Notes under the pieces: model-generated | The model's database searches: none | Seen by the model: only the letters and a program-made list of their open reading frames with translations | What the model was told of the DNA's origin: nothing | Virus record (IMG/VR): IMGVR_UViG_3300046516_001130 | Location: 1-25,157 of that record | Length of the DNA stretch: 25,157 bases | Direction: 5' to 3' (one strand) | From: a virus | Shown: in pieces, positions 16,004-22,911 of the stretch | Layout: each line of letters starts with the position of its first letter | Numbering within the stretch: the first letter of the stretch is position 1 | Position numbers and translations under genes: made by a program

Positions 16004-16450
16004 CTACAGGTGATATGCCTGAACGCGCACGGTGATCGCAACGTATCGGTAAATTGCTCCCTGGACGTTCTCGGTGTAGGGCCGGGTGTTCTCGCGCGTG
16101 ACCGCGGTCAGGTGCCAGCCGGCAACCGTCCACGGCGTGTCGAGCAGCGCCGTCTGGATCGCCGCGCCGAGGTCCGACACGATCGTCATCGAGTATCCGG
16201 GCGCCGCCGGCCGATCAACGGCGGTGACCTGCCAGAGGTCATTGACTCCTGCATGCGAGTACCACCCTTGCGTCTGGTCGCTCACGACCGCGTAGACGAG
16301 ATAGGGAAACGGGCCGCTCGACAGGTCGTCGTCCGGGTAGATGCGGGTGCCCACGGCCGCCGCGATCGTGGGGTTGGCGAGCAGCGCGGCGCGGAGACCA
16401 ATGGCGATGTCGTGGATGTCGAGCGCCCTTGAGACGGCCATCATGGTCAT
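16004..16450 (-). CDS. Tail terminator-like protein
   Basis: This 148-residue protein resembles the DUF3168/gpU-like tail terminators that stop tail-tube growth and join the tail to the neck. Its opening helix (I-A-I-G-L-R-A-A-L-L-A-N-P-T-I-A-A-A-V-G), then P-Y-L-V-Y-A-V-V-S and the closing strand R-Y-V-A-I-T-V-R-V are typical of that family. The start at 16450 overlaps the stop of the gp10-like gene as TAATG, so the two are probably coupled. A second ATG two codons on is possible. Placement between the gp10-like and major tail genes agrees. Confidence 0.82.
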   Translation of the reverse strand: MTMMAVSRALDIHDIAIGLRAALLANPTIAAAVGTRIYPDDDLSSGPFPYLVYAVVSDQTQGWYSHAGVNDLWQVTAVDRPAAPGYSMTIVSDLGAAIQTALLDTPWTVAGWHLTAVTRENTRPYTENVQGAIYRYVAITVRVQAYHL

Positions 16451-16788: not shown

Positions 16789-17190
16789 CTACTCCTCCAA
16801 CTTCACGGCCAGCTGGAGGCTGGTGGCATAGGTCTGCCCCAACGATGTCCCGACGATTTGCCAACGGTCGCCCTTGAACGTCACGGTGTCCTCCTCCGTG
16901 GCAACCGTGCTCACCGGCACCCAAAGGATGCCGTTGGCCTGCACCGTCAACCGCCACACCGCGAGGATCTCCGCCGCACCGCCAGCGTCAAGGAAGCGAC
17001 ACGGCACGGTGGTGACGACGACCTCACCAGGCTCGCCACTCCCATCAGGATTGATCGTGCCCGGTTCGGTGTGGACGATGTCGCACGTGTCAGCCATTGC
17101 CCGCTCATCGAGCACCCGGAAGCGGTCAACGCGGTCGGTGGGGACGTAGGGTGGAAAGGGGTTTGCCGTGTACTGTTCAGGTGCAGTCAC
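16789..17190 (-). CDS. Head-closure / head-tail joining protein
   Basis: The protein has 133 residues if it starts at the GTG at 17190, or 102 if it starts at the ATG at 17097. The core (C-D-I-V-H-T-E-P-G...T-V-P-C-R-F-L-D-A-G-G) and the V-P-V-S-T-V...G-D-R-W-Q-I-V-G end fit small beta-barrel neck proteins that close the head, and it lies between connector and gp10-like genes. I prefer the GTG because AAAGGGG precedes it and the codons downstream of it look selected. That ribosome-binding site and start lie inside a palindromic element, which may have replaced the ancestral start. The ATG has only a weak GATGAG upstream. Confidence 0.78.
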   Translation of the reverse strand: MTAPEQYTANPFPPYVPTDRVDRFRVLDERAMADTCDIVHTEPGTINPDGSGEPGEVVVTTVPCRFLDAGGAAEILAVWRLTVQANGILWVPVSTVATEEDTVTFKGDRWQIVGTSLGQTYATSLQLAVKLEE

Positions 17191-17207
17191 ATGCAAACCC
17201 CTTTCCA
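17152..17207. repeat. Palindromic element, copy A
   Basis: The arms TGGAAAGGGGTTTGC and GCAAACCCCTTTCCA are perfect 15-bp inverted repeats (17152-17166 and 17193-17207). Inside, ACTG pairs with CAGT and GTG with CAT/CAC positions around an 8-nt loop. There is no T-run on either side, so it is not an ordinary intrinsic terminator. It sits between the divergent HNH gene and the head-closure gene and overlaps the start of the latter. A second copy with matching stem lies at 21692-21746. Confidence 0.9.
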
Positions 17208-17235: not shown

Positions 17236-17264
17236 TTGATGCCAATGCGCTAAAGTGGTAGAAT
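17236..17264 (+). promoter_or_regulatory. Promoter of the opposite-strand HNH gene
   Basis: TTGATG (17236-17241) and TAGAAT (17259-17264) on the plus strand are separated by exactly 17 nt, close to the sigma70 consensus at both boxes. It lies about 70 nt upstream of the HNH start codon and points into that gene. Because every neighbour is transcribed from the minus strand, an own promoter is what this gene would need. Confidence 0.65.
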
Positions 17265-17287
17265 CGAGGGATGAATTAGCAATGCCC

Positions 17288-17313
17288 CTCCACCGCTGTG
17301 AACGGCGTTGGGG
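17288..17313 (+). other. Leader hairpin of the HNH gene
   Basis: In the 5' leader, TCCACCGC pairs with GCGTTGG (C90-C91-A92, then C94-G95-C96 against the right arm) with one mismatch and an 8-nt loop. The hairpin ends about 10 nt before the AAGGA ribosome-binding site. It may stabilise the leader or modulate translation. Judged by eye only. Confidence 0.4.
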
Positions 17314-17335
17314 CGAACACCGGAAGGATACTCCG

Positions 17336-17968
17336 ATGTCAGGCAAGCGTATCATTCCCCGTATCTGTGAACAATGCGGCGCACCGTTCATGGCCGCCCG
17401 TGACCAGGTGGAGAGCGGCCGCGGCCGCTTTTGCTCCAAATCATGCGCCGCTCGCTCTCACCATCGCAACGGGATGTCACTCGAAGAAGCATTCTGGTCT
17501 CATGTCACACGAACCGAAACGTGCTGGCTTTGGACACGCGGCTTGGGGACCAGCGGCTACGGCGCGTTCAGGGCACTTGGTCGAAACGTACCTGCGCATC
17601 GCTTCGCCTACGAACTGGTGACAGGCCCGGTTCCTGATGGCAAAATCGTCTGCCACACCTGCGACAACCCTCTCTGTTGCCGCAATGACGACGAGGGCTG
17701 GTATGAGATTGATGGCATCGCGCTTCCGAGGCGCGGCCATCTCTTCCTCGGCACCCAGAAAGACAACGCCGTGGACAGAACCAACAAGTGGCGACATCCG
17801 CATGGCGAATCTCACCCGAAGGCGAAACTCACTGACAACGACGTGGTCGCGATTCGCGAGGCGTTTACTGGCAAACGAGGCGAGCTAACGACGCTCGCAA
17901 TGCACTATGGCGTTGATCGCTCCACCATCGAACGCATCGTCCACGGCAAGCGATGGCGGCACGTTTAG
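17336..17968 (+). CDS. HNH endonuclease (HNH_3 type), inserted on the opposite strand
   Basis: This 210-residue nuclease has a zinc-finger-like start (C11-x2-C14...C33-x3-C37), then the HNH_3 core: A-H88-R-F-A-Y-E, V-C-H107-T-C-D-N111-P-L-C-C, and H135-L-F-L-G-T-Q-K-D-N. A C-terminal helix-turn-helix (K-L-T-D-N-D-V-V-A-I-R...Y-G-V-D-R-S-T-I) probably gives target specificity. Between C-C and H-L-F there are 19 residues where the family usually has about three. The ATG at 17336 follows GGAAGGA at ideal spacing; an in-frame ATG upstream has no such site. It is the only clear plus-strand gene, and its stop overlaps the connector stop tail-to-tail, which points to insertion as a homing element. 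Confidence 0.92.
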   Translation: MSGKRIIPRICEQCGAPFMAARDQVESGRGRFCSKSCAARSHHRNGMSLEEAFWSHVTRTETCWLWTRGLGTSGYGAFRALGRNVPAHRFAYELVTGPVPDGKIVCHTCDNPLCCRNDDEGWYEIDGIALPRRGHLFLGTQKDNAVDRTNKWRHPHGESHPKAKLTDNDVVAIREAFTGKRGELTTLAMHYGVDRSTIERIVHGKRWRHV

Positions 17969-21654: not shown

Positions 21655-22911
21655 TCACTTGCCGACTCCTGCCCTGATCGTCGTGGCCAATTGGAAGGGG
21701 GTTTGCCGCGTACCGCACTGCACGGTCACGTGCAAACCCCCTTCCAATCCCTTGTCCGCTTGCGCCTGCGACAGCACGCCCACGCCCGCCGTCATGACGG
21801 GCAAGACCGCCACGCCCGCGTCCATCGCTGCGAGCGTTGCCACGCCGGCCATGACCGTCGTGACGAGGCCAGTGCCCGCCGTGATGTGCGCGAGCGGGAC
21901 GGGCTCGCCCATCGACGCCCGGCCGCTGAAGACGATGCCACCGGTGGCCGTCAGATGCACGTCCTGCGGCAGCCCGACCGTGCCCGTGAAGGTGATGCCA
22001 CCGGCGGCCGTGAGCCGAATCGCGCGCTCAAGGGCCGCCGTGCCACTGACGACGATGCCACCCGAAGCAGCGAGCACCACGCCCGCAAACGCGGTCAGCG
22101 TCGCGGCACCGCCAAAGACCATGCCGCCACTGGCAGCAAACGGTGGCGGTGCGAACGCCGCGGTGCCGCCGAAGACGATGCCGCCCGCTGCGGTGAGGGC
22201 AGCGCGCGTCTGTGCGTTCACGGTGCCAGCGACGACGATGCCACCGGAGGCAGAGAGGGCGATGCGGAGCTCGAGTGCCGCGGTGCCGCCCCAGACCATG
22301 CCACCGGCCGCGATCAGCGGTGCGGCCGTCGCAAGGGTCGCGCTGCCACCGAAGGCCGCGCCCCCACTCGCACTCAGGCTCACCGGGATCGTCAGCGCGA
22401 CGGCGCCCGTGAACGTGATGCTGCCCGCGAGACTCCAGACGCCCGCGACACCGACGGTTGCCGTGCCACCGAAGGACAGGCCGCCCGTCGCGCTCAGGAC
22501 GGGCACCCGCAGCGCGGCGACACCGGAGAAGGCGATGCCACCAGCGGCCGTGATTGCCGCCGGCGTCAGCGTTGCCGTGCCTGCGAAGAGCATGCCGCCC
22601 GTGGCAGCCAGCTTCTGCGGTGTCAGGGCGATGGCGCCCGCGAGGGTGATGCCACCCGTCGTCGTCAGCGCCGTCGCGGCCCGAAGGCTCGCACTGCCAC
22701 CGAACGCCATGCCGCCGGTGGCGGTCAGTGCCGTGACCGTGCCGAGCGTCGCACTGCCACTGAAGCGTGCGCCACCACTCGCGGTCAGCGGCGACTGCAC
22801 ACTGAGTGCCGCGCTGCCCCCGAACGTCGCGCCACCGGAGGCCGCGAGGGCGTTCGGGGTGCCGAGGTCGTAGGGCTGGCTGTTGTAGCGGACGGTGTTA
22901 TAGCGCGGCAT
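21655..22911 (-). CDS. Repeat protein built of 16 tandem 20-residue units
   Basis: This 418-residue protein has a short start (P-R-Y-N-T-V-R-Y-N-S) and then 16 units of 19-21 residues (about residues 21-339). Each has the consensus L-t/s-A-x-G-G-x-x-F-x-G-t/s-A-x-L, followed by a variable five- or six-residue turn. A shorter degenerate A-G-V-A-x-L repeat comes after. Regular G-G and F-x-G spacing suggests a beta-solenoid or other elongated fibre. Residues about 389-407 are encoded by palindromic element copy B. GGTGAGG precedes the ATG at 22911. It lies among other fibre-like genes between portal and protease. I do not recognise the family; a head fibre or adhesin is an inference. Confidence 0.82.
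   Translation of the reverse strand: MPRYNTVRYNSQPYDLGTPNALAASGGATFGGSAALSVQSPLTASGGARFSGSATLGTVTALTATGGMAFGGSASLRAATALTTTGGITLAGAIALTPQKLAATGGMLFAGTATLTPAAITAAGGIAFSGVAALRVPVLSATGGLSFGGTATVGVAGVWSLAGSITFTGAVALTIPVSLSASGGAAFGGSATLATAAPLIAAGGMVWGGTAALELRIALSASGGIVVAGTVNAQTRAALTAAGGIVFGGTAAFAPPPFAASGGMVFGGAATLTAFAGVVLAASGGIVVSGTAALERAIRLTAAGGITFTGTVGLPQDVHLTATGGIVFSGRASMGEPVPLAHITAGTGLVTTVMAGVATLAAMDAGVAVLPVMTAGVGVLSQAQADKGLEGGLHVTVQCGTRQTPFQLATTIRAGVGK
21692..21746. repeat. Palindromic element, copy B
   Basis: TGGAAGGGGGTTTGC (21692-21706) and GCAAACCCCCTTCCA (21732-21746) are perfect inverted arms. Flanking AT/AT bases extend pairing to 21690-21748. ACCG pairs with CGGT inside, around a 7-nt loop. 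Every stem difference from copy A is compensated. It lies inside the last codons of the repeat protein. The outer arms are read in the same frame as in copy A on the left side only, because the loop is one base shorter. Confidence 0.9.
21895..22851 (-). repeat. Array of 16 imperfect ~60-bp coding repeats
   Basis: These are the DNA units of the repeat protein, mostly 57 or 60 bp, with some of 63 bp. On the plus strand each shows a recurring pattern around GCCACCG and a GAGG/CATGCC context that encodes the G-G and F-x-G core. The repeats are diverged rather than identical, so this looks like an old expansion with selection for the protein pattern. Confidence 0.85.

Follow-up and report, generated by a model that had tools for sequence, protein, structure and literature searches.

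The window analysed here is a linear IMG/VR virus record of 25,157 bases; most of its genes encode phage structural proteins and lie on the minus strand. Two palindromes, A and B, had been pointed out in a preliminary description, and both are present at the coordinates claimed (17152-17207 and 21692-21746). As described there, their stems differ in three pairs, all compensated (A-T/G-C in an outer pair, T-A/C-G in a core pair and again in a pair of the apical stem), and their loops, of 8 and 7 nt, are unrelated. The features concerned are listed below, together with two positions at which the window lacks a copy found in a relative.

16789..17115, minus strand: gene whose start is interrupted by A (comparison with the related contig L194 and reading of the sequence)
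17152..17207, canonical strand minus: element A, 56 bp (sequence, covariance model, DNA fold, empty site in L194)
17193-17207 and 17152-17166: arms of A
17187-17192 and 17167-17172: left core ATGTGA and right core TACACG of A
17173-17186: apical stem-loop of A
21655..22911, minus strand: ORF of 418 aa with B close to the 3' end, the in-frame reading of B being LEGGLHVTVQCGTRQTPFQ
21692..21746, canonical strand minus: element B, 55 bp (sequence, covariance model, DNA fold)
21732-21746 and 21692-21706: arms of B
21726-21731 and 21707-21712: left core ACGTGA and right core TACGCG of B
21713-21725: apical stem-loop of B
16007..16008: empty site for the copy in contig G003 (L182:12310-12361), a clean 54-nt difference at CACCT^GTAGAGG
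18517: empty site for the copy at L029:516-569, a 56-nt insert at TACTT^CTTCG

Folded as single-stranded DNA, each strand of A and B gave z values of -6.5 to -9.4 against shuffles, with 0 of 200 shuffles equalling it. The covariance-model matches reached 67.4 bits (E 8.6e-16) for A and 73.7 bits (E 1.9e-17) for B, and the stem of B extends to 57-59 bp once flanking T-A / A-T pairs are counted. No T-run was read 3' of A or B on either strand, in keeping with the earlier judgement that an ordinary intrinsic terminator is unlikely. Both elements overlap coding ends, as had also been stated: the distance from B to the end of ORF 21655-22911 is 38 nt, and A falls between codons 3 and 4 of gene 16789-17115. 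The start of that gene reads ATG GTC ATC CCG TAC in L194 and GTG GTT ATC [A] CCC TAC in the window, so that A, being 56 nt long, breaks the frame after three codons; an in-frame GTG inside A, with GGAAAGGGG upstream, could restart the gene. The ORF that holds B is made of diverged repeats of about 60 nt (20 residues), which fall into families D1-D4 between positions 21900 and 22850. On the strand opposite to A and 49 bp away, an HNH endonuclease gene (17255-17968, plus strand) is, like A, missing from L194, and looks like an insertion of its own, lying between two head-tail genes. It was considered as a mobiliser of A and set aside, HNH homologues being found near few other copies.

Pattern and covariance-model scans yielded 76 distinct copies from about 40 related IMG/VR phage contigs, with a GC content of 0.61-0.67. 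The pattern of the inner 9-bp arms alone found 24 viral stretches, several of which were clearly related hairpins, and the core pattern GTTTGCC..GTA / TCAC.TGCAAAC also found 24 stretches, without exception in GC-rich phages. Successive patterns returned 24, at least 119 (many of them chance matches), 41, 59 and 28 viral stretches, and two degenerate scans completed the set. When the arms were left out of the pattern (GCATGTGA..TACACGGC), the result was essentially bimodal: in most true copies 12-16 flanking bases were paired, against 0-2 in chance matches, and a handful of true copies scored low through a single mismatch, or a slip of one base, adjoining the core. Because this arm-free core pattern retrieves hairpins with paired arms of 12-16 bp, the copies are far beyond chance. 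A covariance model (R1) built from 46 copies matched all 34 element records, as many as about twelve times in a single record, and had no match in 33 control records. In bacterial and archaeal genomes the strict pattern had no match, and the relaxed pattern matched once, in Streptomyces, at a site that lacked arms and was judged to be chance; plasmid and named-phage collections gave none above chance. No second clear palindrome family was seen in the same contigs, where most of the other palindromes were singletons or else degenerate or extended copies of this one. Most contigs are tied to each other by mosaic similarity, and the copies are therefore not all independent. In the preliminary description, chance or a local duplication had been favoured in the event that neither further copies nor conserved pairing came to light; both a family and its pairing were found.

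Each copy is a hairpin of 54-57 bp, consisting of a hypervariable outer stem of 12-13 bp, an invariant mid-stem core and a variable apical loop. On the minus strand of the window, the core reads TGC-AYGWG-A / T-WCRCG-GCA with two unpaired G. In it, A-Y-G-W-G-A stands opposite T-W-C-R-C-G, with Y-R, G-C, W-W and A-T paired, one extrahelical G per side, and A opposite C. Above the core are two variable pairs, one G-C pair and a loop usually of 5-8 nt. Core variants co-vary, ATGTGA/TACACG being found in 43 copies, ACGAGA/TTCGCG in 9, ATGTGC/GACACG in 7 and ACGTGA/TACGCG in 5. The edge of the stem is sharp: of 74 copies, 72 are paired at position -12, 48 at -13 and 12 at -14, the last being no more than expected by chance. 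The ends of the arms are always paired, and no arm sequence outside TGC/GCA is conserved. Across 78 distinct rows, 442 pair-cells are changed on both sides and 5 on one side, compared with 114 two-sided changes for shuffles and at most 126 for slid registers. No clear case was found of orthologous copies with different arms at one site, so this covariation is mainly among non-orthologous copies. In L032, L037, L172 and L174:7320 the apical loop holds a second small inverted repeat (for example TGCCC.GAGGGC), perhaps another tiny element, and a short hairpin at L170:8592-8623, GGAAAGCCTGATGCCGTTCAGGCTTTCC, resembles a core-deleted copy.

Several copies can be compared with an empty site in a close relative. 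The flanks of the G003 copy are 98% and 96.5% identical to those of its empty site in the window; the site of the L029 copy is also empty in L198/L039 and L035, with flanks 100% and 99.5% identical. The copy at L193:5064-5116 is an insert relative to L192, with flanks 99.5% and 99% identical. Element A itself is missing from L194, a 92.7%-identical relative, where the window's TAGGG[A]GATAACC corresponds to GGGATGACC and homology stops exactly at the edge of A. No target-site duplication was seen at the high-identity empty sites, one junction having a single extra base. One extra base at L193:5064-5116, L038:4174 and L168:2814 is complementary to the neighbouring target base and gives a 13-bp stem, and these junctions look as if the end of the hairpin had been opened off centre. 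Over all loci, the flanks of the copies show a weak preference with two-fold symmetry, favouring Y at -8, T at -1 and A at +1 and having few T at +8, which would suit a dimeric enzyme. In contig G023, three copies at different places share their outer arms, and in G028 two identical copies are 177 bp apart. Taken together, these comparisons support the view that the family is mobile DNA, and the empty sites, the nested copies described next and the many dispersed copies bear out the small mobile palindrome that had been proposed as one possible reading of A and B.

Ten copies lie within another copy, 8 of them at two fixed positions of the core. As read from the flanks, which set the exact base, the insertion point is in the right core (TWCR^CGG) in 6 of the 10 and in the left core (YGWG^A) in 2. 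Excision of the inner copy in silico rebuilds an intact outer copy (E29, E30, E34, E49, E50, E62, E67 and E75), and L038:4174 and L038:4245 both lie, by the same reading of flanks, within one further copy. Because both hot positions adjoin extrahelical bases, the core itself is suggested as the site of cleavage or entry.

Copies are located between genes, at gene ends or in frame inside genes. Eight copies lie deep in ORFs whose coding score is good to either side of the element, and every one has a length that is a multiple of 3 and an outer stem of 12 or 13 bp: six by their 12-bp stem (54 nt), and two (57 and 72 nt) if the paired 13th position is included. For example, a cytosine-5 methylase of G023 carries a 54-nt copy translated as 18 in-frame residues, and a phmmer comparison with 8yf3_A leaves an 18-residue gap exactly at the element, shortly before the PPC catalytic motif. 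Insert-free relatives of this methylase were sought in viral contigs, and the search returned nothing but the G023 record itself; an in-frame check of a 715-aa ORF against solved structures gave no informative homologue. The RecT-like gene at L168:17885-18883 holds two copies in opposite orientations, both in frame.

Phages with three types of head module carry the family and are linked through shared tail genes. These types are that of the window, with an HK97-like capsid, one with a Mu-like portal and capsid E, and one with a third portal/coat pair; relatives at about 43% capsid identity are without the family. A common host or habitat of the carriers is likely. No mobilising enzyme was found in 22 element records, which are contig fragments: a Y1 transposase (Y1_Tnp) was present in 0 of the 22, the control search giving a signal in 5 of 14 genomes, and a tyrosine integrase in 2 of the 22. 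VRR_NUC is weakly over-represented, with 7 of 22 element records against 3 of 33 controls, and its distance from elements is smaller than would be expected at random (Fisher p 0.03, a post hoc value from non-independent records). A cluster of VRR-Nuc-like nucleases is common to phages with different head modules (G002, G007, G020, G023, G028, G034 and G036), and one of RecT-like annealing proteins to eight records.

Altogether, A and B are best read, with a probability of roughly 0.8, as copies of a family of non-autonomous mobile palindromes of 54-57 bp in phages, acting as DNA. The element would extrude as a hairpin or cruciform, and an enzyme supplied in trans, from the host or from other phage genes, would recognise not the arms but the bulged core, reading both its structure and its sequence, and move the hairpin to new sites. 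In the hairpin intermediate one arm may serve to correct the other, or the arm duplex may be exchanged whole; arms matched to each other in this way could drift and yet stay complementary. The insertions that survive would be those at gene ends or with lengths divisible by three, and the element can be read as an insert of 18-19 residues because it is palindromic and has few stops. Against this model, no mobilising enzyme was found in the records scanned, movement is deduced from the comparison of genomes, the copies are not all independent, the strict complementarity could stem from template-switch correction of quasi-palindromes whose hairpin has no function, and the 13th pair and the single extra nucleotides at some junctions are unaccounted for. 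A wider claim is tentative and somewhat short of an even chance: the family would represent a new class of mobile DNA in which only the bulged mid-stem core is conserved, and a structure-reading enzyme would accept any complementary arms, re-perfect them at each cycle, target its own core and spread the element in frame across the genes of different phages.

The same palindromes could be thought of as RNA elements (processing sites, translational operators or antiterminators) copied around phages and kept by selection on transcripts, and the preliminary description had named an RNA hairpin beside a DNA structure. The strong compensated changes would agree with such elements, as would the location of A and B on the sense strand of structural genes and the Shine-Dalgarno-like GGAAAGGGG upstream of ATG/GTG within A. 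True RNA helices drift via G-U pairs. Mismatches in the outer arms are few, and A-C is about as frequent as G-T and similarly so on either strand, so that neither strand is favoured. The shared orientation noted earlier holds for A and B but not for the family, in which a simple codon-usage gene finder placed 32 copies with the strand of the nearest gene, 34 against it and 3 mixed. Copies in frame within the methylase and RecT-like ORFs, and the 0 matches of the window to Rfam at gathering scores, also speak against an RNA element. The random orientation towards genes and the near-absence of one-sided G-T steps make an RNA role very unlikely, and it was rejected on orientation and the scarcity of one-sided changes; what is conserved is pairing in DNA, the other structural reading offered before. 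As a caution, extreme two-sided covariation without transcription bias can be mistaken for conserved RNA. Near-perfect complementarity without one-sided intermediates is also what template-switch correction yields, and A and B might be quasi-palindromes perfected by template switching during replication and spread by local duplication, with no mobility. Such a process cannot generate a common core, many copies scattered through unrelated flanks, exact empty sites or nested copies, and it would remove the conserved bulges. As a full account it is extremely improbable; a contribution to arm correction only is possible.

Among mobile scenarios, free hairpin DNA might be captured at breaks, with VRR-Nuc cutting the cruciform at its core and RecT-type annealing or end joining inserting another hairpin, which is one way to fill in the enzyme of the mobile-palindrome model. 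The nested copies at two fixed core positions, the frequency and proximity of VRR_NUC, the nuclease and annealing clusters common to different head-module types and the extra palindromic nucleotide at some junctions, which resembles off-centre hairpin opening, all fit this scenario. It is considered rather unlikely, since many phages have VRR_NUC, the link with the elements is weak and was drawn post hoc, and the non-independent records probably all share a habitat or host. Mobilisation of REP/RPE-type repeats by a host IS200/IS605-like (RAYT, Y1) transposase would account for the missing phage gene, and the small bulged-stem palindrome, the lack of target duplication and the in-frame intragenic copies are as for REP/RPE (PMC3733652). 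However, of 75 copies, 0-4 per side have GTAG/CTAC just outside the stem, where GTAG REPs carry an unpaired GTAG at one foot, and 2-4 per side have terminal CGTC/GACG, the tag of CGTC REP/RPE; about 2 are expected for each tag and side. Moreover, the stem far exceeds the usual 6-9 bp (PMC3733652), the conserved block is mid-stem and not at the foot, and no Y1_Tnp was seen in the 22 records. This origin is decidedly unlikely, and because the elements failed the test for the tags that define REPs, the family was not filed as REP.

Compared with known systems, the family of mobile palindromes resembles in outline the tagged REP repeats (the GTAG and the CGTC family) and the RPE of Rickettsia, which are small dispersed prokaryotic palindromes with in-frame intragenic copies and some bulged stems, mostly of 6-9 bp (PMC3733652). 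The phage elements share the small dispersed palindromes, the bulged stems and, as in CGTC REP/RPE, the in-frame copies inside functional genes, but differ in having no tag, an outer stem of 12-13 bp plus an inner stem, a conserved mid-stem core, free arms, a location in phages and no Y1 transposase seen in the 22 records. Short mobile hairpins are also known from mitochondria (yeast GC clusters, Allomyces and sponge RHE); the Allomyces double-hairpin elements are without target duplications (PMC2800124), and yeast GC clusters merge into one another (PMC4478555). The phage family is unlike these in being a single hairpin with a fixed bulged core, in GC-rich phage DNA and with in-frame coding insertions, and the AG/ACT direct repeats of yeast clusters are absent from it. 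MITEs of classical DNA transposons are likewise short and non-autonomous, with inverted arms and many copies, but target-site duplications and conserved terminal inverted repeats are both lacking here. The attC sites of integrons are folded single strands with extrahelical bases and a variable apical part, features that the phage elements share; however, the terminal RYYYAAC/GTTRRRY boxes of attC are not found, the outer arms varying at every position, and it is the entire hairpin that appears to move rather than a cassette. A search of the open-access literature, which left subscription papers aside, found no description of a family of miniature mobile palindromes in phages, and as far as this search reached, such a family of ~55-bp mobile DNA hairpins is previously undescribed. 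Compact and apparently active, with precise empty sites, in-frame copies in enzymes and self-targeting, it offers a tractable system, and could address the long-standing question of how tiny palindromes such as REP, RPE and the mitochondrial hairpins move.
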